DNA of 64,000 nt from Hydractinia symbiolongicarpus (Eukaryota > Cnidaria > Hydrozoa > Anthoathecata > Hydractiniidae), in contig NC_079876.1 of the NCBI RefSeq assembly GCF_029227915.1, positions 21,454,001 to 21,518,000 of the forward strand. Direction: 5' to 3'. The notes under the pieces were generated by a model. That model was not told where the DNA came from, made no database searches, and saw only the letters and a program-made list of their open reading frames with translations. Position numbers and translations under genes: made by a program. Positions 2,212 to 44,600 of the stretch are shown here, in pieces; the stretch's first letter is position 1, and every line of letters starts with the position of its first letter.

Positions 2212-2365
2212 GTTGGATCAGAAAGAACTTCAGAATTGCAGTTGGCCGAAGCTGGCCGAACCCATTAAACAGACCGGCTACCGCGAGGCAATAACAATAG
2301 GAAGAGTAAATTATTCCTACGCACCCATCCCCTAATATCAATCTTTCTTTCACCGTAAATTTCGA

Positions 2366-10100: not shown

Positions 10101-11317
10101 TTAATAAATAAACTTTAAGCATATATTAAGGCTCTTAAGGCCGTTTTTCACATAGTTCTCACATTTGGCCCAAATATAACCCTTTGGACAATTTCGGACA
10201 GTAATAAAATTAAGTAATTTTCATTCCAGATATTTAACCTAACCTGTGGACCATAAAAAACATGTTTTTTTAACTTTATTCCAGAAATTTTGTGGAAGAC
10301 ATTTATCTAAATGATAATTTTTAAGTCATTTTTAGACATTTTGGCCTAAATTTACCAATTTCGGACAGGTGTCCAAAAAAAAATTTCTTTTAATAATATG
10401 GACAATTTATCTAAGATTATTATTCTTTTTACAGAATATAAAAATCTTATTTTGTTCTTGAGATATCCTATTTTAACTGAGAGGGTAAATCGAATTATTT
10501 TTTCGTAGCATTTTTGTCCGCTTCGAAACAGCTGTGGCGCGGGCCCTAATTGGGTCTGCGTAGCTCAAAACGAGCATTAAATACTCTAGGACTCTTCATC
10601 TAAGCCATGGCCCCTCCTGGAAATAATATATCCCTCAATATTAGTGAGGCTACCCATGTAAAATATGCACATCTATCTATTTAAGTTATACTAGAGACTA
10701 AAAGTGTGAATCTATTCTTTCAACTTATCGCTGAGAATAAGATTGATATCTCGCACGACGTTGCTCAAATGGAAGCTTTAAATGCCTTAGCACCCCCTTC
10801 GCACAACCCTCATTGATAGCAGTACCAATAGGGACTGAAGACGCTATCCTGGGTAAATAATAAATAAATAATAATAGGTAAGATTCATCAAAAAAAAAAT
10901 GAAGTTCTTCTACAAAATCAAAATTCAATACAACTTGACATGAAATCAACTCTTTTTGACAAAAAAAAGTTTGGCATGTTTCCAAACACATTCAATTTAA
11001 GCTTTAGCTACCTCACACAAAAAAATAAGTTGCTTTTATGGACATTTAAAGTTCTTGTTGGACATACTTGACACTATGGCTCAAAGTCAAAACGTGTCTC
11101 AGCTAGCTTTTTAAGGCAATTCGATGAGAATGTTTCCAAGAAACAGCTTTAGCTAGGTATATAGCTAGCTAGCTAGCTTAGCTACATCAATGAAGTTAAT
11201 AAAAAAATTAGAAACAACTTACTCCAAATTCATTAACCTATCTATCATAGCAGATGTATCAGATAAAGCAGGAAGCACGATTTCGTCGGACGAACTGTTC
11301 ATAAAAAAGGAAGACAT
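4102..11317 (-). CDS. HECT-type E3 ubiquitin ligase, 12 exons, 874 residues
   Basis: Exons, 5' to 3': 11317-11223, 7652-7599, 7285-7208, 7130-7050, 6972-6895, 6816-6739, 6660-6583, 6504-6427, 6353-6285, 6157-6057, 6025-5831, 5741-4102. All introns are GT-AG and the phases agree. The sum is 2625 bases, 874 codons plus TAG. The start is the upper of two in-frame ATGs (11317, 11302). Residues 1-49 are acidic and Ser-rich. Residues 50-229 are Ser/Thr-rich and made of duplicated exons. Residues 231-263 contain LPPNFDELVEVATAERE. Residues 540-874 form the HECT domain, with HDLDGLTKEFFSSF in the N-lobe and PTAHTC in the C-lobe, the thioester cysteine being residue 839. HECT enzymes pass ubiquitin from E2 to substrate through this cysteine. 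No PHD, RCC1 or WW domain is seen; the shape resembles the G2E3-like proteins common in cnidarians. No disruption was found. Intron 1 (3.57 kb) is full of repeats. Confidence 0.85.
6427..7285 (-). repeat. tandem array of 156-bp units, each a 78-nt exon plus a 78-nt intron
   Basis: Six successive exons of the HECT gene (7285-7208, 7130-7050, 6972-6895, 6816-6739, 6660-6583, 6504-6427) are copies of one unit. The four youngest repeat every 156 bases with very few differences in exon or intron; the next two are more diverged (one exon is 81 nt). Each exon is symmetric (phase 2 at both ends), so adding a unit inserts 26 residues of the Ser/Thr-rich type (QPTRSSISRSVQSS, TTNSSVVLPR) without shifting the frame. 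Confidence 0.9.
7930..8290. repeat. cluster of the motif TAAGAAAC inside HECT intron 1
   Basis: The phrase TAAGAAAC or AAGAAACTTTT occurs about ten times in 360 bases (for example near 7930, 7946, 7976, 8016, 8131, 8171, 8200, 8212, 8247), with GTTTCTTA in the opposite sense at 8026 and 8277. Spacing is irregular, so this is not a simple tandem repeat. A comparable cluster in the opposite sense lies at 27090-27375. It could be an element end carrying binding-site arrays. Confidence 0.5.
8335..8595 (+). mobile_element. tRNA-derived SINE, 5' part, interrupted by an insertion
   Basis: From about 8388 the sequence reads like a tRNA promoter. A box-A-like segment (TTAGTGGTTATAGCTCTCG) is followed by a canonical box B (GGTTCGATTCC at about 8442). 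A unique body follows (CAACATGGGCGAGTGAACG to GTAGAGCGCC). A second, weaker tRNA-like head (GGGATTGTGGTAAAGTGC, then GGTCCAAACTCC) lies directly upstream, suggesting a dimeric head. The body is cut at ACAGCTGT (8588-8595) and resumes after a 1.9-kb insertion at 10528. Confidence 0.7.
8596..10527. mobile_element. DNA transposon-like insertion with 8-bp target duplication ACAGCTGT
   Basis: The 1932-base segment is bounded on both sides by ACAGCTGT (8588-8595 and 10528-10535) inside an otherwise continuous SINE. An 8-base duplication is characteristic of hAT-type insertion. The ends begin TTCG and share an inverted GCGGACAAAA (8622-8631 and 10510-10519). No transposase is seen, so it is non-autonomous. 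Inside are a phrase resembling tRNA box B (GGTTCGAAACC near 9211) and about 400 bases of tandem repeat (9815-10205). Confidence 0.65.
9815..10205. repeat. tandem repeat, unit about 165-180 bp
   Basis: The phrase ACATTTGGCCCAAA, followed by AACCCTTTGGACAATTTCGG, occurs three times (near 9818, 9997 and 10162). The intervening blocks (CATCTACATCATCTTTAATGG, GTTAATAAACAAACTTTAAGC) are also repeated. The array lies inside the 8596-10527 insertion. A fourth, partial GGCCTAAATTTACCAATTTC copy lies near 10344. Confidence 0.7.
10528..10690 (+). mobile_element. tRNA-derived SINE, 3' part
   Basis: This is the continuation of the SINE interrupted at 8595. It starts with the second copy of ACAGCTGT and continues GGCGCGGGCCCTAATTGGGT, CGTAGCTCAAAACGAGC and CATGGCCCCTCCTGGAAAT. 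It ends in a short ATCT run (ATCTATCTATTTAA, near 10670-10684), a common kind of SINE tail. Confidence 0.65.
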
Positions 11318-11564
11318 ATTTTAAAAAATAACTAACGAGCAGCATAGGCAGTACTTTTATTTACTTGTTACTGTTTTTGTCTTGTTTTGCACGTGCTTAC
11401 TACAAAGCCACGAGGTTCCTTGTTAAGGTCTGGACATATGTACCAGGTAATCGTTAATTCTCTAGAAATTAACCAAGCTGGGCAACATACCGTACTTCCC
11501 GCGTGTTTAAGTTTAAAACGCGTTTTTGTTTCGCATAGTTCTTGAGTAATCTCCAGTTTTCTCG

Positions 11565-11824
11565 TAATCTTAAGATAACTTTAGTTATCTTAAGATAACT
11601 TTAGTTAACTTAAGATAGCGCTAACATCAAAGGTAGAAAAGTCGTTAATGTTACCATGATCAAGAAATCTTACAATATTTTCTCTGATAATTTGTTATCT
11701 TAAGATTACTCGAGTTATCTTACAATCAGAACATTAATGTGAATATGCACGCATTCCAAAGTCACATTAATAGAGTTATCTTAAGATAACATTTGTTATC
11801 TTAAGATAACTGTATTAATGTGAC
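11565..11824. repeat. cluster of the palindrome GTTATCTTAAGATAAC upstream of the HECT gene
   Basis: The self-complementary motif and close variants recur at about 11567-11612, 11694-11731 and 11775-11811. The last two copies form the core of a 64-base hairpin (11761-11824). Its 31-base arms start GTCACATTAAT, differ at one position, and are separated by two bases. The cluster lies 250-500 bases upstream of the HECT start codon. It may be a miniature inverted-repeat element; a regulatory role is only a possibility. Confidence 0.7.
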
Positions 11825-12894
11825 TGGAGTGCCATAGGCAGCCGCCGAAGTCGACTGTTTTTACGGCAGAAAACAAAGGAATCGAGAGAAACAAAGTCAG
11901 CGAAATGCGGCAAAATGTAGTTCGACTACCGTAAGAACCATAGTACTTCGGCAAAGCACATCGAAGGAGAGTCGAGCCTCGGCAAACACTCCTGAGTGGA
12001 GATAAGAATATTACCTCGGATCCTGGGCGCAAAGGAATTTTATTAAACGCTTATAATAAAAATTATGCGTTGCTTTAAATCAATTTCTATATTTAGATAC
12101 ACATGATTTTCTCATTGGCAAAATTTCTCCTTAGGCGAGTGCCGAAGTGGCCGAAGTCTAAATCCGCCCCTGCTTTTCTCTTCAAGCGCCTTCTTCAAAC
12201 TGTCGTCCGCATGGTACAACGAATTGCATTTCGGGAATGCTCCGGGCGAGTTCGGGAAAGTGCAGGCGGTTTCGGAGGACAACCGCCAATTTAATTCGAA
12301 AAGTCGCCCGAACTCGCCTTTTGCGGCTTATCGGGACCCTCCTCTTAGAATTTTCAATGCTATGGACATAGGAAAATTCTCAGACAACCCTGGCCAAAAT
12401 ATTATGGGAATTTTGAAAAATTCATATGCCACTATCCCCCATCCCCCAATTTTAATGTTGAGTTGTATCCCTGGCAAACTTTGATAATAAAAATAAACCA
12501 AATACAAACCACAACATTGAAGTGGGGGAGAGGGGGTAAAAAATGATATTGTCATTTTCCCCAAAATTTATGACCAGGGTTGTAGCTAGAGTTGTTGTTA
12601 TTAGGTTAGTTTTTCGATGAACAAGATGTTTCTGCACGTAACGAAGCTAGTATTCTTGAGTATCCAATAGTGCTCTATCTCTCTCTCCATTATCTACTAT
12701 ACTAGAGCCCCTGAGAGGTGACATACTGAGCAACTATTTGGTTCTATTATAATTAGCTTAGCTAGCTATACTGACGCCACTTCATTAAGATCAGTTGGAG
12801 ACAGAAAAAAGGAAACAGGCTTTACCTCACCTTTGATACCTTTGATAATCATTCAGTCTTCTAGACTTCGTCTACGTCGATGACGCCGGCGACT
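11825..12894. other. gene-free stretch, locally GC-richer
   Basis: Between 11830 and 12310 the sequence is richer in CpG than its surroundings, with repeated phrases such as GCCGAAGT and CGCCCGAACTCGCC. These could come from a dispersed repeat; similar wording (GGCCGAAGCTGGCCGAAC) occurs at 2244-2262. No supported exon was found. The segment upstream of 11317 could hold the HECT promoter, but no clear core element is visible. Confidence 0.3.
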
Positions 12895-12933
<39 letters not shown>

Positions 12934-12946
12934 GTCTCTCTGTCTA
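12895..12946 (+). repeat. TCTG tetranucleotide microsatellite
   Basis: About nine perfect TCTG units run from 12895 and grade into TCTC/TCTG variants up to about 12946. The following stretch to 13520 contains no coding exon I can support. Confidence 0.9.
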
Positions 12947-14195
12947 ACTATCTATTAAAAGGTAGAGCACGAGAAGCAGCAAAGACATGCTGCATCTGTT
13001 GAATAATATTTCTTTATGCTTTAATATATTTCTAACTTGAAAAATGAACAACTGTAAAAGTTTACAATCAGCTTATAGTTTATATATGGAACATGCTAGA
13101 AAGTACTAGTAAACAAGCTATAGAAGTTTCAAGAAAGTTCAAAATGATGTTCATAATACATGCATGATGTCATGTTTATGCATGTGTAAATGTTCTGGAA
13201 TAATCCACTATGTTCTAGTATATGGATAGAGTGTATAATTTCAATAACATGTCAACTATGCTGTTAGTATCAGCCACTCCATTTAGAGGCCACATCATAA
13301 TAGATATTATTACTATTATTATATTAAGGGAGATAGGATGAGAAATGTTTGTAGACTTGACAGAAATAATAGAGTTAATGCCTTTCCAAACCTTGCGAAT
13401 AGACTGGGTATATTAATAACCCCCTTCCAATCTGATTCACACTGTTAGATCTAAACTCAAATTCCTATGCATCAAGTCTGTCCCAATTATATACCTTTAT
13501 TTTTGGTCTACATATATATACTAGTTGATAAAGACCCGTGCAAAAATCCACTTAGGCAATAGAACATTGAAAAAGTTGGTTGTTTAAGACGTTTTGCTGA
13601 AAAAAAAAATTGCCAAAATTTAGTTTATTTGTTGCCTGTAACATGTAGAGGTTGAAACGCTGATCGAAATAATGTATAGGATCATATCTTTTCTACGAAC
13701 GACTAAAGACATATAAGGGTTTAAAAATTTTGCTGACATCAGCAATGGCCCGTTAATAATAATAATAATAATATATTTTTTACCAACAATCTACAGTTAC
13801 AAGTATCCAGTAAATATATAAAGCCTAGAAATATTAATTCATTTTTATATATACTATATGTTAAAGCTTACCTCCTGAGAAAAATCAAGTTGACCTAAAT
13901 CGATTCATAACATCTTCAGAAAAAACAATTTAACGTTTATTTTGTTAAAATCACTATTGTATTCAAGAAACCAGACAATGTTTACCTCATGTTTTTAAGC
14001 CTTCACCTCACTTGTTCGCCATTTTGCAAGTGAGCATTTAAGAGTATAATTATGCGCCTGACGTCACTAGTTAGATGCTCACATTCGGACCCCCGGGATG
14101 AGAGGCGAAACTTTGCGGATGTGATGTGATGTGATTTGTAAAAAAAAGTTCAACACGTTGATGAATAAGGACAAATCCTTTTTTTAAATAGTAAT

Positions 14196-19100: not shown

Positions 19101-22100
19101 AGAGATCTAAGGAAGCAAAAATTGAAAAATAAATAAATTAATAACAAAAAAGCAAGAGATGCCACTTATAAAAAATTGATTTTACATCTTTTATACATAA
19201 CGTTTTCTGGACATAAAAAGAAACAAAATAATGATTATTACAGATTGTCCGCAACAACGATGTACCGAAGATTCCTTTCTCATGTTTTATAATTTTATTA
19301 TCCATTTTCATCTTACCAATCATAATGTGTATAATATAATGATTAACAGTAATGGAGAGGACAAAGTTTTATGTGCCTTATTAATTGTATTTTTTAATTT
19401 TTTTTACATTTTTTGTGGCCACCTGTTGTTTGAAAGTAACGAATAGAAAAAAAGGAAAGAAAGAAAAATATCATTCAAACTTAATTTTAACATATTTTAC
19501 TATTTCTAACAGCATTTATCAATTTAGTCCTGGGTACTAGGTTGTGAAATATGTACATGTCAGTAACACCTAAAATTGATACCTGCCATACTATTACCAG
19601 AAGCAAATCATTTCAATATGCTCAATGTGATTGAAAAGATATAAATAGATTAGAATAACAATCAACATAACAGAAAAATTGATTTCCAGAATCTTGTTTT
19701 AGAGTGAGTGAGAAAATCGTTGTTGAGAGAAAAAAATAAAGCACGTAAATAAAGCGAGGTCATTAAGTATTGGGTTTTTTAAAAAAACTTCGTTCAGATT
19801 AAATTTTAAATGTGTGTTATTTGGACAAAACTTCCAATAGATTTCCGTCTTGGTCGGACATTTCCATTTGTTTAGATCTCAGAATTATTGAATAGTTCTA
19901 GTCCTTCTAATCCACGAGCAAGCCTATTCATAGCCAGCCTGACCATCTTAGCTAATTCACTGACTGCTGACTTAGTTAAAAGAACGACGTAGACATGAAT
20001 CCCTAATGCCTGGCCCCTTCGCTGGACAAAATGACAGGTTAAAATTGTTTGGATCAGGTAGTCTGCTGTTTAGAGCTTAAAGTAATGTACATATAGTTCG
20101 TTTACTTTCATTATTTACTTCATCAAATTTGTCATACAATCTAGGTAATTATTAACATTTAACAATAATATAGGATAATAGCATGTATCTGTAGACCTTA
20201 GTTGCTTAATTTTAATAGCTAGCTGTTTGTCTAAATTGGTGATATATTGGCATATATATACTTCCAGTAATTAAGTGTAACTTATTCTTCAAACAACATT
20301 TGTAAAAATAACAATAAGTAGGATTTCACTAACAATGATTTTAAAATAATAGTTGACCTATTGTGAGGGATGTATTGTCCCATCTATTTTTTCCAAGTGG
20401 GACAACAATGGTATTTTAGCAGTATTTAAAACTCAGGTTTCACACACTTTTGATTTCAGAACTAGGATACTATAATTTGACTTTCTTTTATTATTATTAT
20501 TATTATTAATCATATTTATACAGGTTTACATCTTCAGTATGATATAATATATCTGCACTGTTATGAACGAGTGACCTGTTAAAACAAAAATAAACAAAGT
20601 AAACAAAGAGCCAAAAATTGTTTTTTGTTTTTAAATAATATATATAAAATTATGAGAATGTTGGAAAGAAAGAAAGAAAATAAAATAAGAATCAAATAGC
20701 AGACTATGAACAGAAAAATTAGCAAAAATGGGAATTAGAAAAAATTTGAGTTTAGGATTCAAACTTCACAACATTAGAAATCAGAGAAACAATAGCGTAT
20801 CTCCGAGACACCCTGTAACGTATAGGATCAAGCTAAGGTAAGTTGCCAAAGTCGAATTTGAAAAATAGGATTCTAAAATTCACAAAGCCTTGTAGCTACA
20901 GGGTATCTCAGCAAAAAATTAATCAAGCTAAGGTAATAGACCTAGAACTCACTTTGTTTCAAAAACTTTTTAAAATTTATCATACTCTTTTCTTCCCTGA
21001 TATTAGAGGGGAGACTATTAAAAACTAAAGCTCCTTGATAATACGTAAGCTTCCGACCAGCTTCCGTCTTGATGATAGGTAAGACTAATTTAGATCTATT
21101 TCCTCTGGTGTTAATCGAATGGCTAACCAATTTGTAATTGCTTTCAACAGTAATATCGTTAACGGCTTTGAACACATCAATTGCTACTTTCTGTTTTCTT
21201 TGAGTGACGAATGTTGACCAATTCTTGCGGGTTTTGATGATGTGCTTAGCTCTTCTCAGCAAGGACTCAAATTTTCCAATCCATGTTTTATTCATTCCAC
21301 CAAATATGTCGTAGCAGTAAAAGAACAGTGGATGGATCATTGAGTTAGAGATGGTTTCAGCAACATTTGGAGAAATTTTGTAATGTAATTTATATAAAAG
21401 TTTGATGCGTGAGGTTATACGCTTGTATGTTTTTTTAAGGTGATGGTTCATGTTAAGGTGAGTATCCAGTTGAATCCCAAGGTATTCGTAATAATCTGGT
21501 TGGTTTATATCATTTTGATCGATCACAATATTGACAGAGGCTTGTGGTTTTCGGGACGCAAAGACGACAAATTCTGTTTTGCCTTTTTTTGGATTAAGAA
21601 TTAGGCAATTTTCCTTCATCCAATCGTGAATGATATTTGCATCCAAATTTATACAATATTCAATTTCATCCAACGACTTGCTTGATGAATATATGACTGT
21701 GTCATCAGCATACATCAATACTCGACAGTGTTTCAATTGGCACGGTAAGTCATTGATAAGAAGAATAAATAGCAATGGACCCAGAATGGAACCTTGGGGT
21801 ACACCATGCGTCATATTTTCAGGATCTGAGTATGCTCCATCAATGAAAACAGTTTGACTTCGATTAAAAAGATAACTGCCTAATCAATCAATTTCAGTGC
21901 TAGTAATACCATAATAAGGCAGTTTCTGGAGAAGGCAGCCATGGTTTACGGTATCAAAGGCCTTTCTCAAATCCATGAATAGAGCTCCGGTTGTCTTACT
22001 TTTATCCATATTGTATCTTATATCGTCAACAAGTGATTTAACCGCTTCACGTGTAGATCTTTTTCGTCGAAAACCATGTGCTCACTCAATAGATCTTGAT

Positions 22101-25100
22101 TTTCTAAATAATCAGCTAGCTGGTCGTAGACGATTCGTTCGATGACTTTAGACAACACATTTAGTACGGGAATGGGTCGGTAGTTATCTATGTTTGAGCG
22201 ATCGCCAGATTTATACAATGGTGTTATTTTTGCAGATTTTTCACAGGTTGGAAATGTACCAGTTTCCAAACTCTTGTTTATCAAGAACATGACAGGTGCA
22301 GCTAGTTCGTTTGAGATGTCTTTAATTATCCTACCGAGGATAGTGTCAATAACAGCAGCTTTAGCCGTTTTAACCGATTTTAGTACTCTATTCACCTGAT
22401 TAATTGTCACTGGTTGGAATTTAAATGATACATTCCTTTTATTAATCATGAGTTACGTATGTTGAACAGTTTCCAAGTAAAGTTGGTTATTGATGGTTTC
22501 ATGAGACTTGAACCAACTTTGGTGAAAAAAGAGCAAAAATTGTTTGCAATTGATCGAATATTGAATGTCACTGTTCCATTGATTACGAATGTTTTGCTCG
22601 GACTTGACGAATCTTTAGTAGGGTAGCACGACTTAATTTGTTTCCAGAAATCTCTTGGATTTGCTGAAAATTCTTTCAGAACAGCACGAACGTGGTTTGC
22701 CTTTGCAACATGAATGCGATTGGTTACAGAGTTTCGGTAAGATTTATAACTTTCCCAACCTCCGGTAGAATTTGATCGTTTAAAACGGCGATGATGATAA
22801 TCTCGCGTATTCATTAAGTTTCTGATTTCTCTGGTTATCCAGGGGTTGGATTTTCCACGTACAGTTTTTTCTTTAAGTGGCGCATGTTTATTGATTGCGG
22901 TTGATAAGTAGTATTTGAATAAGTTCCATGCTTGGTTTAAGTCGGTGACAGTTAAACAATTCTCCCATGGCACGTTGCGAGATCTTCTTTGTTGTATTTT
23001 GAGTAATCACGTGCTTTGATGTTCTTTTGAGGATATCATTTACAGTTTGCTTTTCGGCTGATTCCGATTAGGCAGAGATCGCTGAGAGAGTTAGTGTACA
23101 CTAAAGAGTCGTTTATTTTTTATTTATCGGTTGTAAAAATTAAATCAATTAGTGTTCTACTTTCTTTTGAAATGCGTGTAGATGATTTAATGACCTGACT
23201 GTAGTTATACAGTTTAACCAGATCTTTTATGTTAGAGTGTACTCTTGGGAGATTGTAATCACAATTGAAATCACCACATATAATTGTTTCTTTATTTTCG
23301 ACTGATATTGTATCCAACATATTATCAAACTTTGAGATGAAGTTTTTATCAAGAAACTTTGAGGAATCCGGGGGTCGATAAGCTGAGCAGAGTAACAAAG
23401 ATTTTAATTTTGGAATAAATAATTCTATCCACAAAAACTCAATTCCATCGATCTCTAAATCACACCTTCTGCGATATTGTAAATCTTCCCGAATATAAAA
23501 AGAAACACCACCATCTCGACCATTCTTGCGATCCTTTCTCTCAAGTATATACCCCGGGACAAATAGCTCCGAATTCAATACAGTGTCGTTTGTGTGTGTC
23601 TCAGAGAAACTAACGATATGAAAACAGTTTTTCGCGTCGGATAAAAAAGATTTTATAATATCCAACTTTCCGCAGATCCCATTTATGTTTTGATGTAGAA
23701 ATTTCATGCCTCTCCTTGCAATTAAGTCTGACATAACAGGATCAAAGGTATACAGAATTTTCGGTTAATCTGGTGGGATACATTCGCTGCAGTAAAATTT
23801 CTCTTTGTTTTGATCTATTCTGACTATACGCACGTCTGCCCGTGCTGCCATCTTTCCAGTTCGAATGTCAAAATTCTAAATAAAAGCAAAACATCCGATC
23901 TTCTAATGCAAATCGTACATTTCTAACAGTTTTGGGGGATGCAGTGCATGGCTGAAATTCTGGCATTCTTATGCAATAATTCTTATACATAAAATCTACA
24001 ATATTTTAACTTTTTTGTCATACCACCACTACTAAAACCCTCTTTATAACTGTGTTAACAAGAATTTTATGAAATTCCCAGTTAAAAGCTGTGAAGTCAA
24101 CATTTTGATGATACATTCTTCAAGCTATGCATTTCGCATGCGTAATTTGCAGAACTAAACGGATATGGAGATAGGTTTCTCTCTACTTTTTTTGGTCTAG
24201 AGTTTTCTAGTAATAACACAAGGGAATTCAAGTCAACAAAAATGGTTTTGTTCTTTCCTTAAATTTAAATATACATAAGATGCAAAAAATTATTATCGGT
24301 TTAATCTGTATATTAATACGAAAGTTGTGTCCGTCTGTGACCGCCAAAGTGGATATCTTCCTTTCCTTTGATATAGCCAAAAAAGTTATGTCCAATTTGT
24401 TAATTTTTCTGACGGTACAGCACAACGTCAATGCTTTTGGACTGACGTCAATGCATTACAGTTATGACTTTGAGGCCAAATAACTTGGAAACGAGGTGGT
24501 GACATCAGTCATTTTTTACCGCGTGGGGAACTAAGGACGACCTGAGACCAAATTGGGAAAGTTTCCCAAACTTGAATGCCCGAATCCATTTCAGAATGGA
24601 CGGGTTGATAACGTCAAGTAGTATAGGACCTGGGGGTACGGGCGCATTTCCGAGAGCACTTTTGTGCGTTAGGAAATTTGCTCGGACACCCACATGTCCT
24701 GTACTACTTATCATATGACGTCATCAAGTGAGCTGGAACACCCATGTCCTACACTACTGTGATGTCGGTAACATCTGATGGTCAATGCGTTTAAGACTTA
24801 AAAAAATAAACTGTATGTATAGTATAGATAAATAAACTTACAGATAAATAAATCTTGGAGTTAGGTGATGAGGATTTACTTGATTATATAAGGTATCATA
24901 TGGTTGATTATTGTGGTGATTCAGATCATAAAGATGATATAGATTGTGCTTGTGATGTGGAAAAGATAAAGAGATAACATCATCTACGCTAGTTTGTCTA
25001 AAATGTGGTGTAGTTGTGATATTCATGTTTATATATACCTTCATACAGTGTGTTTTGAACGTTGTACCTTTTTGGAAGAAGTGCATATACAAGACTTGAG

Positions 25101-28100: not shown

Positions 28101-31100
28101 ATATTTCAATTACAGTAGCTGGGGATAAATAAATAAAGACTCCAGAATAAAAGCTCAGAAGACATAACATTAGATTGCAAGACAGACCCAGGATTATAAG
28201 TTTGTTCTAAGCTGGTGAATTGATGTGAATGATTCTGTCTGTCCAAAAAAAACTTAAAAAAACAGCTAGAGGGCTTAAAAATGATTGCATTTGGCTGAAA
28301 CTGGTAAAACTTGAGTGAATATGTGGGGGAACTTTTTTTTTAGCCTCTGTAGTTTTTTTCTTTAAAAGTTTTTTTAGTTTCGTAAGCAAGCCAGTGTGGT
28401 TAGCATGTTAGACAATATATTGTTTTAGTTAGTAGAAAAGTAAAAATGGGCACCAGAAGTTGGAATTCTGAAGTAAAGTATAAAGTTGGAGAAAAGTGTC
28501 ATGTTAGGGCTGGCTATTTTGACAAGAGTGAAGCAGCTGATAAATATAGTGACTTTTTTGTTCACAAAGAAGAGTCACTTCTTGAGGGGAGAATCCTCTC
28601 TGTCCACAAAACGTCAGTTAGAGTGAAATTCCTAATTGATGAATCAGTATCAACCATCAAGTTTGAACACATTGTGGCAATAACAGATCAAAAGCTACTC
28701 ATAACTCAAGACTTGCAGAGATTGCTCTAAAAGTATCTTATCAGTAGATTCAATAATTTATTTTCATTTAGTTTTTTTCAATTTTGGTTTACATTACATT
28801 ACAATATTGCCTCAAGTTGCCTCAGAGTAGCCTCTAGGCTGCAGTAACTTGCATTGCCTAGCTAAATGTCAATACGATCTAGTCTCAAAAACACTGGTGA
28901 CACTAGTTACATATCGCTCACTGTCAAGGCTATGTTATAAAACTCTAAGCATACCTGATTAAGTGACTAATGACATAAAAGCACATAACAACTAATTTAT
29001 TAAAGTTCTATTATATATTTCTTCAACACTGTTCCAGTCTTGTTGATAGCTGATATTGTTCTTGTTGATTAATATTTACTAGTCTAATAATTCCTGTATA
29101 ATAAATATTAATAGTAAAATTCAAGGAATATTTAAAATATTTAGCTCATACTTCAAATAAAATGTACTTCTACCAGCACTTTTATCAGTCTTATTCAGTT
29201 ACTCTATTCTAGTTCTCTTCAGGGCTTTAGGAAAAGCATAGAGTTAGGCCTTTTTTATGTTTAATACCTTTCGACCTTTTTTCTACTCAGAATGTGTTTG
29301 GACTGCTTTTAGAAATGTTTTGGACTTAGGCCTTTTCACAAAATTGAATTTTGAAGGTATGGACTTAGGCCCCTTTAGTGAAAACATTCATTATGGTGCT
29401 AAGTCCTTATAATTTAAAATTAGTAAGCATTAAAGAGGCCTAAGTCCTTTTTGTTGTTTTCACTTGGTGGCACATGATTTATTTACTTTGCCAATAACAG
29501 CTTTTGATCCAAGAAACAAAATCATAATCATGGCTTTCAGAAAAGTTTTACTTCCATACCTAAATATTAAAAATGACTTCAGAATCAAGTAAAAAATTAA
29601 ATCGCAGTTTTCTCAAAATTAAGAAAATGGACTTAGGCCCCTTTAGAATTAAGGCTCTCAGGACTTAGGCCCTTTTAGAATTAAGGCACTTAGGACTTAG
29701 GCCCCTTTAGAACTAAGGTAGCGATATTTTCCTTTGTTTCTATGTTTTCATCAGGTTACTGAGTACTCAATTGCTGTATCTGGTCGCTTATAAGACATAG
29801 TTTGGTGTGATAATGGATCTAATTATAACATTTTGATTAATAAGCATTGTATATATATAATGCTTTGTAAAACATTTGACAATAAGTCAAGCATATTGAG
29901 TAACAAAAATTGTTTTGGATGCACTTAGAACATACAGATTAGGCTTCCATTTTGTACTTCTTCTGAAGTTAATACAACTTGTTTAAAATAAGCTATTATA
30001 ATTCTACCTGTAAATTATACACCAAAAATATATAACAAAGTACTTCCTTTTGCTTTCAATCATTAATGGTCATCTGCGTGATTGTTGCGACCGCAACCTA
30101 AACAGGAAACGAAGTACATAACGAAATTCATAAAGGAACTTGCTAATCAATGTTGTCTGAAACTAAATTAAGAGAACCAAATTTTGTTACCATTTCATGA
30201 ATAGTTGTGATTTTGTCTCATCTGTAAGACGAGGAATATGTAACAAAGGCCGGCAGTACGATCTAAAAATTATGCAATGATAACGTTTCCTCCCTTGGTT
30301 CAATCACATAATAATATGTCACACCTGCAATACAAGTATAAAGGTCATTCTCTCAATTCAGCCATATTGGTGCACTATTTTTGCCGATACTATAGTTGTG
30401 CGCATTTTTTTTTTTAAAAGAGCTTCATAAATATGCGTCAAAAAATATGTAGTGTTCGTCTGATGCTAAAAATACAATCAGTTTGCTCATGTATACACTT
30501 TTCTTCATATCAGACTCGAAAAGGTTACAGACATCTCGTAAACCAGGTTCCGAAGTATTAAAAGGCGCATTTCTATAATCTCTACCCAAAATGATTGTAT
30601 CTGAGTGTATTTTCTTATAAAAAAGTCAAACATAGCAGAAATAATTAAGTGCGATATTCCTGATAAAACCTTTTGAGGAATCATATGAGCACACTACACA
30701 ACAATCATTGAACGCACAACAATCATTGAGCGTAATAATGACTCCTTTCAAGGAGTCAAGCAAAGAATGAAACCCTAAAGGAGTCAAATGAGCACCTCAA
30801 AAGGGAGTCATTGTGGGTTGACTCCTTCTTGCGTCTCAATTTGACTCCTTTTTGACTCCCTAAGGGAGTCTTTGTAAAATGATAGCATTTAAGGTTTCAT
30901 TTGACTCTTCTAAATTTATCAGTGTATTTATATCTGATGGATTAATATAAATGCACTTACTTATAAAAAACAAAATAGTACTTAAGAAAATAGACTTAAA
31001 GAGATACCACTTTATTAAAATATGAAATGAATCAAAAAATATCTAAATCTAATATAATGAATAAGAGTTATCTTGAAAAACTCCATAAATCAGAACTCAT

Positions 31101-34100
31101 CAAATTGCTTTTAGGGAAAGAGAAAAAGGAGTCTGTTGAAACTATAAATGATAAACCAGGATATATTAAAAATCCAAAAATGAATAGGTGGAATAAGGTA
31201 AATGGACCTACATATAACAAAATCAGACCAATCCCGGCAGCAAGGAAACCAATGGTAGCACCAATAAGACCAGTACCAACACATAGAAAACCTGTTTTTA
31301 AACCAGTGTCGGAGCCAAGAAAGTATTTTCCTAAACCAGTACCAGCACCAAAAAAACCAATCCCTGCACCAAGAACTGATAAAGTGCAATTGCAAAAGGC
31401 TCTAAGGGATTCAACAAAGTCATTCGAGGTGGGAGTTGTAAATACTAAGGATCCATTAAAACAGCTAACAACTGTAAGAAGTAGTATTGTTCGTTGTCTT
31501 AATAGGAAGCTAATTGAACTAAATGGTTTCAAGTATGTTGAGACACTAAAAATTACATTCAAAAATCAACTTGATAAGGATGAAACAACTACCAAAACAG
31601 CCTACTTTAACAATAAGGTGATTACGATAATAAATGAAAATGAAATTAATACCGCAGTACATCTAGCATTGGAACAAATAATAAATACTATAGCCCAATG
31701 GATTTCTGAGGGATCTGGATGGACTATTGTTTCAGTTGATGCACATTATTTTAACATAACTAAATACAAGCCATTAAAGGGTTCCAGCTATATTAAACTA
31801 CCAACGGAATTAACAAATAGATCAAATGGACTAATTAATCTTAAGAATCCAGATAATGAATGCTTTCGATGGTGTCATATTAGGCACCTAAACCCACAAA
31901 ATAAGGATTCCCAATGAATAAAGAAATGTGACAAAGAGTACATTAATAAATTGGATAACTCTGGAATTGAATTCCCAGTAGCCATCAAACAGTATAATAA
32001 GATTGAAAAACAAAACAACATCAGAATAAATGTATTTCCTTATGAGAATAAACAACCATTCCCAATATATGTATCAAAAGAGAAATTTGAAGATTATATG
32101 GAACTATTGTTAATGACAAAGGGTGAAAACAAACATTATGTTCTTATCAAGGATTTTAATAGTTTCATGTGCAATCAATCAAAACATAAGGAAAGAAAAC
32201 ACTTCTGTATGTACTGTCTAAAATGTTTCTCATCCAATGATATATTAGTAAAACATACTGAAAACTGTATATTTAACAATGGTGAGCAAGCTATAAGAAT
32301 GCCGGAAAAGGGTAAAAACATATTAAAATTCAAAAATTTTCAAAAAACAGTTGGAAGTACCATTTGTAGTATATGCTAATTTTGAAGGTAATACTGAGAG
32401 GTACATGGGTGTGAGCCCAATAATAAGAAATCATATATTGAAACATACCAAAAACATACAGATTGTGGTTATGGTTATAAGGTTGTATGTTGCTATGATG
32501 ATAAGTACAGCAAGCCAGTGAATACATGTAGGGGTCCCAATGCTGTTAACAGATTCATGGAAGAAATGTTGGAAGAAGTCAAATATTGTAAGAACATCAA
32601 AAGTAAGCACTTCAATAAGGACATGGTAATGACTAACACTGATAAACAACAAACAACTGAACACTGATAACACGAACAAACTATGTGTAAACAATAAAAC
32701 GTCGAAACATAAATCGAACTTCCAATTTGCAAATCGTACATCAAAGCATCGTGTCGGTTAATCTTATGATGTGAACATGAACTTTTTGTTGACCGCACAG
32801 TCTTCCTTGGAAGATGTTGATTTGTTGAATGTGGGAATTTTTTGTTAATTGACTGTGGCTGGTGCCTGACCGATAACAGTGTGGGGTGTGGTATGGTAAT
32901 GAAAGAAGGAACTGGTCAAGGTGTTTTCTCCAGTCTTTGCCTTCCAGAGTTGCTGATTATGGGGACTGAAATGGTGCAATATTCAGACTTTTAAATTCAG
33001 ACTTCAGACTCTATCATCTTTTCACACTTCAGACTTCAACATTCAGACTTCAGTGTGATTATTCAGACTTCAGACAAACACATTAAGACTTAAAATTAAA
33101 ATTACCTTAAAACTCTTAAAATTAGCCTAAGATTTGCCGAAAATGCAAGACGAAAGTAATGACACACTAACTAGCAAAGAATCCACTTTAAATTTCTTTG
33201 GCAAATTATCATTATTAGTATCAGAACTGCAATTATTTTTTTAGAAAGAGTAGGTAAAGCATTGACGGAATTATACTTGTGCCAATTCAACTTTCCTAAC
33301 AATTTAGCTATTAATGGTTTAATAGTACAGTTTCACATATTTCATCAAGAACTTGAAAAAGAAATAAGACAGAATGACTCTCGTATAGCTATTTTTCGAT
33401 GTGAAGCCAAATTTGAGCAAACTGTTGGTGTGACATATCAGAAGAAACATTGATTTACTTTAAGAGCTTAGGTTGTACTTGGAAAGAGATTGCAAATTGG
33501 CTGGTAGTATCACATTGGACTATTCAGAGAAGAGTAGTTGAGCTCGGTTTAAATGGTGTACTTGGTTTTTCTATAATTAGTGATAGCGAATTGGACAATA
33601 TAATATTGTCATATGGTGAGACCAATGGTTTAGCAACCTGAAGGTCAATAATTACTGGCCATTTGCGTTCTCTCGGAATTAGTGTGCAGCAGCATCGTGT
33701 AACCGCTTCCCTTCAACAAATTGATCCTGTTGGAAGTAGAATGCATTGGTCTCTCGTAATAAAAAGAAGAAAGTACAGTGTTTCAGTTCCAAATAGCCTG
33801 TGGCATTTAGACGACCATCATAGTTTGGTAAATTGGGGTTTCGTTATACACAAATGTATTAATGGATTCTCTAGATTAATAACTTATCTGCAATGTGAGA
33901 CCAATGGTTTAGCAACCTGAAGGTCAATAATTACTGGCCATTTGCGTTCTCTCGGAATTAGTGTGCAGCAGCATCGTGTAACCGCTTCCCTTCAACAAAT
34001 TGATCCTGTTGGAAGTAGAATGCATTGGTCTCTCGTAATAAAAAGAAGAAAGTACAGTGTTTCAGTTCCAAATAGCCTGTGGCATTTAGACGACCATCAT

Positions 34101-37100
34101 AGTTTGGTAAATTGGGGTTTCGTTATACACAAATGTATTAATGGATTCTCTAGATTAATAACTTATCTGCAATGTACTACAAACAACTTAGCTACAACTG
34201 TGGATTCCTTATTCGTAAAAGCTATTAAAACCTTCTCGAGTTTGCACTGACAAGGGTGGAGAAAACGTTAGTTTGGGAAAAAATGACATTGTTAAGGGGA
34301 GAAAATCAAGGTAGTTACTTGCCTGGCTCATCGGTTCATAACCAGAGAATTGAATGTTTGTGGAGAGATGTATGGAGTTATGTCTGTAATAATTTTTACT
34401 ATACGTTTCAAGCAATGGAATCTTAAGGTAAGAATATCAAGTGTTATTAGATTTTTTACAACGTTTTTTGTTGCAATGTTCCGATGCTTATTTGTACTTA
34501 TATACGTTTTTTAAAGGCATTTTAGACGTTGATGACCAAGTCCAAAGGTTTATCCTGCATTAGATATATGTTCCAAGAATAAATCATGCTATTAAAAGTT
34601 TTATAACAGCATGGAATAATCACCTTTTCAGGACAGAGAAAAACTAGACGCCTGAGAGAATATGGGCAAATGGTATAATAGACATTAGAAACCGCACTAT
34701 TGGTCACGTTGCTGAGATTCATGATGCAATAGAAGAATTACAGCATGAAGATCTTGAATGGTTTGGGATTGACTGGCATGCCCCAACTCCATACAACGAT
34801 TGCCTATCTACAGTTGAAGTATTTGATGTTGACAATCCGCTAACTAATGAACAGTTATCTGCACTACGTCAGTCAGTTAACGCTTTATCAGAATCATCAC
34901 AATACGGGATAGATTTGTTCCTTTTAGCTATTCAAATTATAACTCAAATTCCTGATTCATAAAGGCTATAGAACCGTTAAAAAGTCACATAATACACTTC
35001 TTGTACATGTTTTCGATGTATTTTTTTTCATTTTTAAAAACATAACATAATTTACTTTTATATATAAATAACCAAGCCTGGTTTAATACTCTTCAGACAT
35101 CACTTTGCCCTAGTTTTTCCAAAATATACAACATAACATATAAATCACTGGTAAGACATTATAGCTAAAAATCAAATAACCAAAACCAAAAACATACAAA
35201 AAAACCTTTTAACTTTAATAAAGAAACCATTTATTGATCACAATTTTAAGACTACTGGAACTGCAAATCAAGTGAATACACTGTCAATTCAGTTAGTTTC
35301 TAATAAACAAAACCACGAAAATCAAGTATAATATTTCAAAATAAAAATAATTTTTTTGTTCTTTTATACTGCATTAAATGCAACAGGATGAGTTGCTAGT
35401 GCGCTCATAAACGAAAAGCATCAGGCCATTCCAATTTATTTTTTTTCCCGAGGAATGTACTCACCACCAGTTAAAAATATCACTACTTTTCTTCTTGTGT
35501 GTCTTCTTCGTCAATTACAAAGCGGATAATAAAATCTTTCAATAATGCTTTACTCAGTTCAGGAAATAAAGCATTCCAATAACCGACTCTGATGATATCT
35601 CTTGTGCAATGAGTAGTTTACTGTCTGGGTATTTTCTCATTTCAGTAAGAACATCCAATGCCTCCAAACTTTTTTTAAATTGGTTCAACGTCACTTTTGG
35701 TTTGTTGAATAGGAAATGAACCATAATGCCTTGAGTAATGAGAATTCGATTTTTATCCTGAAAAATCAAGAATTTTATTTACTAACCCTCATGTATATAT
35801 AATATATATATATATATATATGTAAATAAAAAAAACCACAATTTGTTAATTTTATTTACATCAACAAAAGGTAAAATTGCTATGAATGCCATGTTAAAAT
35901 GACCTTTCTTACTTTTAAAAGATAATCTTGTGCATGTTTATTTGGTACATCCTGTATCACCATGAAAGGCATTGCACCATGAATGTCTGACACCAAGTAC
36001 TGGTAAATTGCTCTGAAAAGGTTTGCCATACCAATGCCAGTTTGAACAATGGAATGTGCCACAATTTTGCCAGCTGTTTCTAATAAATCACTGCCTACAA
36101 TTACTGGATTATAGCATATTTCTTTGGCTGCGTTTTGACCAATAAACAAAGGTGTAAGCCCTTCTGCACCATCTTCAAAGGCACGGAATATTTCGGAATA
36201 AAATTGTCTCTTAACACCACCTGCATCTACTCCTGCTTGATTTTTATAAGTTACACATAGTGGATAATGAGCATCAAAGTCATGGTGTTTATAATATCCC
36301 AAAGCGTCAGTTAAAATCTATTCAGCTTCTACTGTCAACACTTTGGACAATCATTTAAAATTTTATTTTGCAATTTACTTAGTGATTCATTAAGGCTGCT
36401 GCAATGGTTATTATTCATGGCATCTTTTCTTCAGCATTAACCAAATCATTTACCAATTGTTCAAACTCATTTGTAGAAGAAAAATCCTCAGCACTATAAG
36501 AATTGCAATTTTCTTGAGGCTCAGCAGCTTCTGAGTCTCTAGAGCAACTGGGCATCATGCTATCAGTATCAAGAGCACTATAATTGCCAGTTAAAACTTC
36601 AATATTATCTTTAGTAGCTTGTTCTTCACTATTTTGTGGTCCAGTTCATCATCATGCATAACCAGGAAAGTAGCAGGAACAATGAGCTGAATATATAGTT
36701 TTCCTTGCCCTGAAAGTTTTTTTAAATGTTCATATTTTTATTCAAAAGTGTCTGGTACTCCTGGGCCTGTAAGTAAAGTTCTATTACACTTCATAAAATT
36801 GAACATATTTGGTGTTGTCAAGGGAAACTTTTTTCTAAATAACTTTTCATTTTTTCTCGAATAGCCATTTCATTATCTTCTGGATTAACATCCAAGTAAA
36901 AGTTTGCTAATATTAATTCCTCTCGTAATCTACTTTTATCAGATTTGTGCTCCTCTTCATCCAAAAGAACAACCCCGTAAGTCTTAGGCTTCACTAATTT
37001 TGTAGGTTTACTTTGCTTTTTTAGTCGATAAGGATGATTAGGTAAGCTCTAGGTAAACCCTTTTAGAAAATTGAATTGGTGGGGATAATGTGCTAGCTTC

Positions 37101-40100
37101 TGTAGCACCAGTGTGCCCTCCTGCCTTCTGTTCTGTGTTGTTGTTGCGAGAGTGAAAAAGTGCTGGTGTTGTTAAAGATGGTAGACTCAACTGTGACGTA
37201 GCGTGGCTGTTCTTTCATATATATTTGAAGTTCTTTGTTGCTGCTGGCATATACACTGAAAACATGTTGCTTTGATTGGATGCCATTTTGATAAAGATAT
37301 TCATTAAGCAAAATAGTAAACAAAACCAGGACCCACGCCCTAAGTCTGAACAATGAGTCTAAAGTCTAAATTTGTGCGAAGTCTGAAGTCTGAATTTTTG
37401 TGAAGTCTGAAGTCTGAATTTTATAAGTCTGAATATTGCACCATTTGAGCCGCCATAGCTGATAGAATGAATCGATAAGCGTTCTGGTAAATCGTTCTAC
37501 TTCCCATTTCGTTGCAGCATGTAAGGTAAAGTTGTCCGATGCTTGATGTTTCTGGCTTGAAGGTATTGTTGCAGTTTTTCGGAAACAAACTGTGGACTGT
37601 TATCAGTGATGATTTTATCAGGACTTCCAAATTGGGTGAATATGGAATCCAGGTGTCCGATAAGTTTGGTCAATGTGGTGTTCTTGAGTTTGATCACGAT
37701 AGGATACTTCGATCTGTGATTGATAATCACGAAGAGGTACTCCCCTGTAGGGTACAGTCCTTGTAGATCAGGAGCAAGCACACTCCATGGTTTTTTTAGT
37801 TGCATCATGGTCAGTTCTGCATGGTTCATAGTTGCTGGTGACGTCGCTTGGCAAGACAATGGAATACAAGATTTTTGACATCTGTATTGATCGTGTGCGA
37901 CCATACTTTTTCTCTGAGTAGAGCATTTGTCTGGATGATGCCTTGGAGTCGCTTCGGTATCTGGTTACCTTTTAGTACAATGCCATCATATACTGAAAGT
38001 TCATGACAAAACTGCTTAAATGGTTTAGTGACATGAGATTTGTTGCTGTTGATGGCTGAGATGACTGCTTGAAGATCTCTGTGGCGTTTTAAATGTTGAC
38101 AATGGATACATTCTTTGGTACTGTGTCCATGATTAGGTGTTTGATGTATGCATCTTCGTTTTCTTTCCTGAATAGGTTTGAGCATGGTGATCTGCGGAAG
38201 TAATCTGCTGCATTGTTCACACAAGGTTGATAAACAAGAGTGCATTGGTAGGCTTGAAGTCGCAACATCCATCATTGGATCCTGGGTGGTGAACTTGATC
38301 GATTTGAGAGGACCTTCAACAGTGGTTTGTGATCTGTGTTGATCGTGAGTTCTTTGTCGTATACAAACTAGTGAAAGTGTTCACATCCGAATAAAACTGC
38401 TAGTGCTTTTCATTCTATCTGTGAATACTGTTGTTCTGTTTTGTTGAGCGATCTACTGCCAAATGCAACTGGAAGCATACTCCCATCTCCTTGTTTTGTG
38501 ACTGAGTATAGCACCCATTTCTACTGGACAAGCATCTACAGTTACGGCCGTTTCAGCTGCTGTGTTGTAATAAGCTAGAACTGTTGCTGTCATGAGTACT
38601 TCCTTCAAGTGGTCGAAAGCACTTTGTTGTTCGGTTCCCCACTGAAATACAGAGTTCTTCTTAGTAAGGTTCCGTAGCGGAGCTGTGATGGAGCTGAAGT
38701 TGGGAATGAACTTGGAGCAGTAGTTGACTAAACCGAGGAAGCTGCGTACTTTCTTTGGATTTTGTGGAACTTTGAATGAACATACTTTCTTAACTTTCGG
38801 ATTGTAGGGTAGGATACCTTTGTCAGTCAATGGATATCCAGAGAAAACAATCTCGCTCTTCCTGAATTCACATTTTGCTGGATTCAGACAAAGTCCTTCT
38901 TCTTCCAATTTGGTAAAGACATTATCTAGGTTTGAATTGTGTTTCTCGTCTGATGTACCAAGTATGAAGACGTCATCCGAAATGTTTGCAGCATCTGGGC
39001 AACCTGCAATCACTCTTTCAATATGTTTCTGGAACTGTTCGAATGCGTTAGATACGCCGTAGATGAGTCGGATATATCTGAATGCCCCTTTGTGAGTGAT
39101 AAATGTTGTTATATCACAAGAGTCAGGATGTAATTCTATCTAGTGATAGCCATCTTGAAGATCACTTTTAAAGAACACTTTTACATAGTGAGTTGCGGCA
39201 GGATTTTGGAATCTGGTGTTTTTCACAGATGATCCCTTCATCTGGTCGTCACATGTCTACACACAATTGTATTTTGCCATTACTTTTCAGAACAGGTACA
39301 ATTGGTGAGACCCATGTAGTTAGTCCTGTGGCTGGTTCGATGATGTTCAGGTCTAGATATCGATCTATTTCATCCAAAACCTTTTCTCGGGTGTGAAATG
39401 GCAATCTTCTTACTGGTTGTTACACTGGCTGTTTGGTACGATCAATGTCTAGTTGCATTTGAAAATCTTTCAATTTACCAATACCTTGAAAGAGCTTTTT
39501 GTGTTTATCCAGAACTGCTTGTGTTGAAGCTGGAATCTAAGACAAGTGGTTAATTTCTTTCGGTGGTGGACCAACTAGTAGCAAGTCTAAGGCGATAGCA
39601 GTGCTCTGACCAATGAGTGATCCACCTTTTTCTTTTATGACGAAAAACTTTGCATTTGATTGTTTGTCACCTGCTCTGATGATTTCTTGTAAGTTTCCCA
39701 TGATTTGTAGCGGTTTTGTAGCATTGTATGGGAAGATACATGTAGAGCACGGATGATATGTTGGGTGCGGTTTCATATTTGTAGGTGTCTTCGTCGAGTA
39801 TGTTTGCTGAACTGCCGGAGTCAATTAACATTTCAATGTTATTACCATGAATGTTCAGGGTATATTTACATGTATCATCTGGTGATAGCTGAAGGAGGTA
39901 GATTTCATCGTCATCATCATAAGATGGTTCTTCAACAATTTCCAAGTTGCGGGTCTTGTGGGCTCCCTTGATCCTGCACATTTTCATAAAATGTCAAACT
40001 TTCCCACATTCTGCATGTTTTCCTGCAGTCAGTACCTCGGTGTCCTTTGATACCACATCGGCTGCATTCAACTGCTGTATTTCTTTTGTTGTTGCTGTGA

Positions 40101-41617: not shown

Positions 41618-44600
41618 ACAATATTTATACAGGATTTTTTACACTTCAGTAAAATGAACTACTGCTATCATTGTGTGTCCTGTCAGTAAAATATATAAAA
41701 GAAAGAAAAATATAAGCAAAAACTATTATCTACTAAATAACCACTCATAAGTTAGCTAAGAAATTAATATAAAACGCATGTACGTACCAAGAAAAAAGAA
41801 AAAGAGAAAAAAGAAAAATGTGAAACTAGAATGCGCAAAAGTTAGAAACAGAAGCTACTTAAATAATTACTAAAAACATATAAAACATGTTTTAAAAGCG
41901 AATATTTACATAAAATGTTGATAAACTAATTTTTTGAACTGAAATAAGTTATCGCAACAACGTATTTTTAATGGTAAGTCATTGTATAATGCTGCACCAA
42001 GATATTTGAAGGATCTTTTTCCGAACTCCAATTTTATACGTGGTAATTTCACTAACATATTTCGATTCCGTGTGTTAATTGAATGCTCGTTGATAACAAA
42101 ATAATTATTGAAATTTTCGCAGACAGTGCTCGTCAGACAGCTTTTTACCAAAATGCATGCCCGTCCTTTCATCTTTTCTTCAATACTCCCAATCGTATTT
42201 TTTCCTTCAACTATTTGTCCGGCTCGATTTTCTATTGATTGTAACTTTTTTCATTGGGTCATCGTTAATTTTAAATTTAAAAGAGAACTATAAAACAAAA
42301 TGGGTTCAATTACCATCTGATAGATTTTATATGCAGCTTCAAAACTCAGAAATGGTCGCATTTTTCTAAGAAGGTTCAATCTTCCGGCTGCTTTCTTACT
42401 TCTCAAAATTATCAACCAGGGTTAGTGACGAATCCAGTTCGTTTCCCAAATATATGTAAGACGTGGAATGATGAATAGGTTGACCCTGCATTGCCAATTG
42501 GATTGTATTTTTGGTATTTTTACGGGATAATCTTTTAGATGTTCCAAATAGCACAGTTTCTGTTTTTCCTTTCTTTAGATTCAGTATGAGTTCATTATCG
42601 TTCAAATAAGTGGATACGTTTTCTAATTCATCGTTCAATGTTGTTTCTATTATATAGGGGTCAGCATTTGCAACATAGATGACGGTATCGTCAGCAAATT
42701 GAATACACTTACTTTTCTCAAGGTGTTCCGAGAAGTCATTAAAAAATATCAAAAATAGTATAGGACCGAGTATCGATCCTTGCGGCACTCCACTTACAAC
42801 GTTAAAACTTGCTGATGTTCGATTGCCAACTTCAACAACTTGTGATCGGTTAAAAAGATAATCTGTAAACTACAACAATTCTACATTGTCAACACCGTAT
42901 GATGAAAGTTTTCTTAAGACTACATCGTGACTGATCGTATCGAACGCTTTACTTAAATCCAGGAACAGCGCTCCAACTAACTTTCCGTTCTCGGCAGCTT
43001 GTCTTACTTCGTCAACAAGTAGTGTTGTTGCAAGATGTGTTGAACAATTAGCTCTATAGCCAAATTGGGAGTCATTTAGTAATTTCTCATTTTCTAAAAA
43101 TTCCATTAATTGTGTGTGTACTGCTTTTTCCACTAATTTAGAGAGTATTGGCAACACTGAAATTGGACGATAATTTTCAGGTTTGTTTGTGTCTCCTGAT
43201 TTAAAAAGTGGGACGATTTTTGCTTGTTTCCATGCGTTCGGAACTGTACTGGAGCGTAAAGACTGGTTAATAATGTGATGTAACAGAACAATTAAATGTT
43301 GCGCATAATCTTTAAGCATTCCAGGAGGGAGTTCATCAAGCCCAGTGGATTTCTTTCTCTTTAATTTCTTTTTAAGAAAATCCTTAATAAAAACTTTAGA
43401 CACATATTGAAAATTAAAAGATTTTCTAGTTTTGGAGCAAATGTGATTTGGCGGTTTCCAGGTAAAGTTCTTCAATTTAAATGCGGATGACTTCAGATTA
43501 TTTACGTCTGTTGAAAAGTAATCACGGAAGGCATTGGCGCGAGTTTGATTATCTTTCTCGTTATTAGACGCATTTTTTATGTTAGCCTTTGTCGGAAATA
43601 TAGTTTTCACTGCTTTCCAGAAAGCTTTGGGATTTGTGCGGTTTTTCGTCTATTAAGTTCTTGTGATGTTTAGCCTTAGCGTTTTTTTGCATATTGTTGC
43701 ATTTATTTCTTAAGTCCTTATATTTCCTCCAATCAATTGCACTGTTGCTTTTTCTAGCCTTTCGTAAAAGTTGATCACGCTGGTTCATTATTGATTTGAA
43801 GTTTTCGTTAAGCCAAGCGCATGGGCGACCTTTCACTCTTTTTTGAATGATCGGCGCATGTTTGTCGAAAATATCTTTTACAATACCATTTAATGTGTTA
43901 ACAGCGTCATTAACGTTTGATAAAGATAATACCGGCAACCAATTTACTTGTTCAAAATCACGATTCATATTATCAAAATTGTATTTGGCATAATTTCTGG
44001 TTTTGACTGTTTTTGACGTGTACTTTTTGTTGTTTAATTCTCGTACGCAACCTACTAAATCATGGTCACTGAGACTAGTAGGTATGACGTCTTGTTCAGC
44101 GATTGACCCAGGGTTGTTCGTTGCTATAATGTCGATTAAAGATTTTGTGTCCTGCGTTACACGCGTTGGTTTTTTAATTATTTGTGTTAAACCCTTCTGT
44201 TGAATAATTGCTTTAACTTCTCTATTATCTCGTGAATTTAAATAGTTAACATTCATATCTCCTATGAGTATAACATCTTTAGACTCCGCACAACAAAGTG
44301 ATAATGATGTCTCTAATAACTCATTGTAATTACTCGGCAAGTGTTTTGTGCCGTTTGGAGGCCTATAATGTGTTGCTATAAGAATTTTTAACGACAATTT
44401 CTATAACAATGCTTTCGAGTTTACCAATCTCCAAATCTGTTCGCCTAACATAGTTTATGTTGTCATTTATATAAACTGCTACACCTCATCCTTTACCAGT
44501 ATTACGATTTCTTTTTTCAAAATTATAACCTGGGATATCATACAACTGATCGACATCTTCGGCGGTTGAAATATGAGTTTCCGATAACGTAAACACATCT

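Follow-up and report, generated by a model that had tools for sequence, protein, structure and literature searches.

A decayed transposon copy in Hydractinia, probably of the IS3EU superfamily, and the pairing of its DDE transposase gene with a HECT ubiquitin-ligase gene across diverged families

A 64-kb stretch of Hydractinia symbiolongicarpus DNA (contig NC_079876.1; hereafter "the window", in which all coordinates are counted) contains a transposon copy of 4,500 bp at 32958-37457. It is very probably an inactivated member of the IS3EU superfamily, in a genome where the usual kit of such elements is a DDE transposase of the Pfam type rva_4 together with a HECT ubiquitin ligase, the two genes usually standing tail to tail. 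The copy has matching ends, a 6-bp target-site duplication and both genes, and the same two genes stand side by side in diverged families elsewhere in the genome, where catalytic motifs can be read in other copies. The window element itself is a dead relic, an old copy in which both genes are pseudogenes.

Ends and insertion site

The termini of the element are TATGG..CCATA. Its left end reads TATGGGGACTGAAATGGTGC... and its right end, on the other strand, TATGGCGGCTCAAATGGTGC..., and the inverted arms (32958-32995 and 37420-37457) are 38 nt long and 89% complementary. Directly outside both ends lies an exact 6-bp duplication, GCTGAT (32952-32957 and 37458-37463). A first-pass annotation of this DNA, made from the sequence alone, had recognized the inverted ends and had suggested looking for a target duplication, but it placed the element at 32969-37446, which is 11 bases short on each side. 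When 8.5 kb was scanned for TA-starting 30-mers with at least 20 of 30 inverted matches and an exact 6-bp duplication, a single pair was found (27 of 30), and it is the pair of ends given here; none of 100 first-order Markov resamplings yielded a pair passing the same scan.

The subterminal stretches are filled by inward-facing TTCAGACTT units, five within the left terminal inverted repeat (TIR) region (32958-33094, plus strand) and six within the right (37330-37457, minus strand), with two further copies in the rest of the window. The first-pass annotation had described arrays at both ends, and they would suit multiple transposase binding sites. Such repeats differ by family: families A and B, described below, own other units (in A also by a tandem repeat finder), and family D has hardly any. 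With 126 bases from the left end as query, the genome gave seven matches.

The element interrupts a Gypsy integrase gene, as had been proposed. On its right flank, Pfam assigns the integrase core PF00665 to 37497-37904; the host sequence occupies 37464-37904 on the minus strand and resumes at and below 32957. With the element and one GCTGAT taken out, a single minus-strand frame spans the junction. This Gypsy frame is damaged in itself.

The two genes of the window element

The plus-strand gene (33417-34959) consists of a helix-turn-helix region and an integrase core that matches rva_4 (PF24764, E 8.8e-24). The integrase-core gene of the first-pass annotation is therefore real, though stops and frameshifts make it a pseudogene. 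That annotation missed a perfect tandem duplication of 279 bp inside it (33616-34173; 33616-33894 and 33895-34173 are 100% identical), which, in an otherwise old element, is either a recent event or an assembly artefact. Better-kept copies show the transposase more fully: in the family A copy C1b, two spliced exons encode 502 amino acids, the first exon matching rva_4 at E 1.7e-56, and the family D transposase matches at E 3.5e-68. Across 27 relatives hand-picked from 120 listed, the two catalytic Asp residues never vary and the Glu hardly does. Two NCBIfam models, IS481 (E 1.8e-8) and IS3 (E 2.1e-7), also match the transposase, at scores under their equivalog cut-offs.

The minus-strand gene (35364-36845) has its best open piece, from the N-lobe, at 35880-36302 and a C-terminus ending in FNAV before a stop at 35364-35366. 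It carries stops and has lost its active-site segment: relative to the related C13 copy, some 48 bp around 35416-35456 are gone, the active-site Cys segment among them. The window pieces alone reached no Pfam model. They were identified as HECT by relatives with 37-81% identity, a number of which are likewise decayed, and since better-kept relatives pass the Pfam HECT cut-off, the HECT gene called on the first pass stands, as a pseudogene in the window.

Among the relatives, the C1b HECT gene, spliced from four exons, encodes 662 amino acids and lies above the Pfam HECT cut-off. PF00632 passes its cut-off in families A, D, G, J and K (best E 1.6e-15, in J) and falls short of it in the window pieces, the family P pieces and a second HECT-like gene of the window (E 5.5e-4). 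A profile of the element HECTs matches the cellular ligases TOM1 (E 2.4e-4) and HUWE1 (E 9.1e-3) weakly, with the active-site segment of HUWE1 aligned. All nine Hydractinia C-terminal ends compared, which were chosen for readability and include K, a near-copy of C3b, and P, a call from a weak match, have the Cys motif and a Phe at -4; the Phe at -4 is likewise present in C3 and family G. The N-terminal regions vary by family: G matches SAM at the cut-off level, and both G and P have zinc-finger matches below theirs. In the family G gene (L089:700-3391), which shares a strand with its integrase, the SAM match stands at the start.

Database proteins bear on whether these genes are transcribed. 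P0124 (source "lgn") spans a GT-starting, stop-containing interval of the C3b HECT gene, as a spliced message would, and P0001 reads across the family A transposase intron in the same way; P0131 and P0133 ("lgn") run into an intron, as genomic DNA would. There is thus a hint that the C3b HECT and the family A transposase may be expressed as spliced messages.

HECT and transposase genes are paired across the genome

Searching the Hydractinia genome with the best HECT piece of the window gave 24 matches at 23 places, four of which are near-identical family D loci. In the sequence read around them, an integrase stands beside the HECT gene at 19 of the 23 places, tail to tail at 18 and on the same strand at one (C2c). 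At C9b, where little sequence was read, an integrase lies 8.0 kb on by coordinates, with a family F integrase in between. The second HECT-like gene of the window used as query returned 67 matches, itself included; eight were chosen and read for 3 kb past the HECT 3' end, and seven of these have an integrase, six convergent and one same-strand. The window itself holds two integrase places paired with two HECT places. As a control, none of eight arbitrary 3-kb stretches taken at round coordinates matched either gene.

Eight paired lineages were compared (the window element, A, B, C3, C2d, C11b, C2c and C3b). Between them, the HECT proteins are 23-50% alike and the integrases 24-57%. Family D is a ninth lineage, whose HECT is 25-29% alike to those of A and B. 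The pair is thus present in nine or more diverged lineages, and G, H/J, P and most of the loci found with the second HECT gene would add more. Because diverged families each hold their own HECT beside their own integrase, the HECT gene is not a one-off capture from the host. The first-pass annotation had suggested that the element encodes the HECT protein; the repeated pairing (19 of 23 places against none of eight controls) bears this out, and other copies with related ends keep both genes. Four of the HECT matches, L031 and L034 among them, were considered as host genes and rejected, being family D elements.

Complete units were delimited in two families. In family D, D_C7 has a 30/30 TIR and the duplication ATATAT on both sides, D_C6b a 30/30 TIR with TATAGA, and D_C2 a 28/30 TIR with AGATCC; for D_C6a, no TIR and duplication pair was found in the stretch read. 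Over the largest aligned blocks, these four family D copies agree at 97.7-99%. L094, another family D copy, retains N-terminal HECT exons, but the 3 kb read there holds no core. The family B copy C6 is 6,067 bp long, with a 26/30 TIR and the duplication CACAGG. In family A, the TIRs of C1b are clear and start TATGGTTG; no duplication was seen at the ends of C1b, nor in the stretches read of C13 and C2b. Families A and D end in TATGG..CCATA, as does the window element, and family B ends start TATCC/TATGC, keeping the TA and departing from TAYGG. Comparison of copies at separate sites within families A, B and D gives about 90-99.7% identity across the main aligned blocks, which points to fairly recent movement.

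Selection, descent and points against the reading

Between families, HECT dN/dS (the ratio of non-synonymous to synonymous substitution rates) is 0.24-0.26 in three finite comparisons with dS of 2.1-2.6. The other comparisons range from 0.33 to 2.34, with one undefined. The window copy gives 0.35 against C2b, 0.61 against C13 and 2.34 against C11, the last on 2.5 synonymous and 19.5 non-synonymous differences. The spread within families, from 0.33 to above 2, is as expected of dying copies.

HECT and integrase identities over 74 pairs are correlated (r = 0.85), a value driven by near-copies; joint descent, as read from this figure, was dropped as a near-copy artefact. When each family is represented by a single element (26 pairs), r falls to 0.20. 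Because the per-family identities are uncorrelated, they do not establish that HECT was captured once in an ancestor and then descended jointly with the integrase. Deep branches lack resolution in both the HECT and the integrase tree, and rooting carries no meaning, since the outgroup, L031 and L034, consists of family D elements and not of host HECTs.

Several observations weigh against the reading of the window copy as one of many elements built around a transposase and an active ligase. (i) With the one-per-family sampling, 1070 of 5000 permutations gave a correlation as high, so that the value is not significant, and dS between families is near saturation, five such comparisons having given no value. 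(ii) In the stretches read at the HECT places C11, C5 and C14, an integrase was not found, nor was one found at L078 within 3 kb past the HECT 3' end. (iii) In the reverse direction, an integrase search gave 95 matches, merged into 77 places, and only 18 of these have a listed HECT match within 8 kb, on coordinates alone and with both lists incomplete. (iv) At two loci of the family F/I integrase, the 3-4 kb read beyond its 3' end shows no HECT, the 5' side being unread. (v) The active-site Cys is lost in the window and C13 copies, the latter reading STG in place of STC; the family J end, as printed, has the Cys and places the Phe at -3 rather than -4; and D_C2, the family D copy that was translated, has one stop in the transposase. 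The remaining three family D copies have no stop across the matched transposase exon. (vi) The ligase activity of the element HECT is predicted, and its targets are putative.

The 18 integrase places of the reverse search are convergent with their HECT in 16 cases, and two places near C9b are counted among the 18. From the 59 places without a listed HECT, eight were chosen and 3-4 kb was read on the 3' side. A HECT core is present at four of the eight (G, H, J and K), and a fifth, P, has a weak HECT match (E 0.002), no Pfam HECT and a motif seen by eye. The other three are the family D copy L094 and the two F/I loci. The HECT of G lies on the strand of its integrase; those of H, J, K and P are convergent.

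The family F/I integrases (L088, L091; C3:4462538, C10:7939326-7947614) include 13 near-identical F copies, and on C10 related integrases form a run of three with 3,744-bp spacing.

What the HECT protein may do

In the scheme that we propose, the transposase, a retroviral-integrase-like DDE enzyme, would bind the terminal repeats and insert the TA..TA ends at a target cleaved with a 6-bp offset. Ubiquitin from a host E2 enzyme would be loaded onto the Cys of the HECT protein and from there passed to a target chosen by the family-specific N-terminal region. As the first-pass annotation had also suggested, host factors may be the targets, most likely proteins by which the host silences or processes the element, a proposal that we regard as plausible though far from assured: variable N-termini joined to a conserved catalytic end favor changing, and hence host, targets.

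There are at least three other possibilities for the presence of this gene. In the first, the HECT protein acts in the element's own cycle, ubiquitinating the transposase or transpososome for its removal or limitation and leaving host defense proteins aside. Chaperone-driven disassembly of a transpososome is known for phage Mu, and the HECT gene has stayed with the transposase in families that have diverged. Differences between the N-termini of the families are easier to reconcile with changing targets than with a single conserved one, and we consider a role in the element's own cycle a real but lesser possibility. What remains after host targets and regulation of the transposase would fall to other roles.

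In the second, the HECT gene is a movable module, swapped between transposon families without lasting benefit to any of them. HECT and integrase identities are uncorrelated with one element per family, there are two gene arrangements (convergent and same-strand), and fungal TET/JBP genes provide a precedent that includes IS3EU (PMC12730594). Against such swapping, the convergent order recurs in 18 of 19, 6 of 7 and 4 of 5 pairs, and most of the ends read retain the Cys motif and the Phe at -4. The test is a weak one because the deep branches of both trees lack resolution, and we hold module exchange to be rather unlikely.

The third, that the protein is HECT-like and no longer a ligase, with another role such as DNA or transposase binding, is improbable. 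The element HECTs are far from known HECTs, the window pieces have no Pfam match, and 16 of the 17 database relatives have no Pfam call; the Cys and the Phe at -4 in nine of nine ends, and a Pfam HECT match as strong as E 1.6e-15 (family J), speak for a ligase.

Finally, HECT genes are common in animal genomes and the window copy is broken in both genes, as might be the case if this one copy had by chance taken up a host HECT gene as a passive passenger, but the recurrence of HECT beside the same integrase type at 19 of 23 places, the low likeness of the lineages' HECTs (just 23-50%) and the HECT genes held within complete TIR-and-duplication units of families B and D refute chance capture for the lineage and leave it hardly credible.

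Relation to known transposons

By its ends, duplication, TIR and transposase type, the window element fits the IS3EU superfamily as far as its sequence can place it. IS3EU elements, grouped with GingerRoot, have TA..TA ends and usually 6-bp duplications (PMC10045372), and the ends of fungal TET-positive members are given as TAYGG..CCRTA (PMC12730594), into which TATGG..CCATA fits. The window element is further alike in its TIR of more than 30 bp (38 nt, 89%), its IS3/IS481-like DDE transposase and its second gene in opposite orientation.

The accessory genes are different. According to PMC12730594, the fungal TET-positive members carry an alpha-kinase gene opposite the transposase and TET/JBP; TET/JBP genes have been exchanged between fungal transposon families, IS3EU included, and an anti-silencing role has been proposed for them. 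The fungal and Hydractinia elements are alike in placing an accessory enzyme opposite the transposase and unlike in its class, which in the fungi is DNA demethylation and protein kinase, not ubiquitin transfer. A term search of both IS3EU papers (PMC10045372, PMC12730594) returned no occurrence of "ubiquitin". The nearest precedent that we met for ubiquitin transfer in a transposon lineage is the RING ligase domain of Chapaev-type transposases and RAG1 (PMC4411706). There, too, a domain of ubiquitin-ligase type occurs in a lineage of DNA transposons; that lineage belongs to another superfamily, and its RING is fused to the transposase, whereas the Hydractinia elements have a separate HECT gene. 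Unlike the cellular HECTs HUWE1, TOM1 and RSP5, the element HECTs are short (662 amino acids in C1b, 564 in the second window gene), have other N-terminal regions and occur in multiple copies within transposons. Our searches of open-licence literature brought up no report of a HECT gene in an IS3EU element, and none of the papers listed in the direct search named HECT together with IS3EU or GingerRoot; Repbase, which lay outside the search, may hold one.

Reach

Among database proteins, 3,949 are relatives of the transposase, and the species-named ones among the 120 listed come from hydroids, a sea anemone and corals. HECT relatives are 17 out of 8,000 scored candidates, one of them from the fish Oryzias javanicus, with a HECT domain, the Cys motif and a Phe at -4. 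In viral contigs, five stretches fit a pattern and none was a relative.

To our knowledge, few host-acting enzymes are known among the cargo of eukaryotic transposons. A ligase kept beside the transposase over many families, with catalytic residues mostly conserved, suggests control of protein stability in the life of the element, and the recent, well-kept Hydractinia copies make the ligase role directly testable. A bolder and, in our estimate, unlikely extension is that a large clade of animal DNA transposons has HECT for its second core gene, a ligase that, by way of exchangeable N-terminal targeting regions, would mark host silencing or repair proteins for destruction as a ubiquitin-based counter-defense. 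Were this true, transposons would account for a share of the multi-copy HECT genes in the annotations of animals such as fish; some annotated animal HECT genes may belong to transposons.

Other features of the window

The second HECT-like gene of the window (4102-5796, minus strand) is an intact frame of 564 amino acids with a TAHTC motif and a GFSMI end, and its first 432 residues have 97% identical copies at three other places in the genome. It adjoins a truncated rva_4-like integrase on the same strand (2369-3133, minus). No inverted ends were found around it in 1-14000.

To the left of the transposon, two plus-strand frames at 31027-32379 have no Pfam match; by eye, they resemble what we take to be a Polinton-associated protein. 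Reverse transcriptase and endonuclease frames, as in retroelements lacking long terminal repeats, lie at 20942-21814, 23120-23734 and 42870-44397. A tandem repeat of 156 bp at 6396-7163 consists of four to five units and is open in one minus-strand frame.

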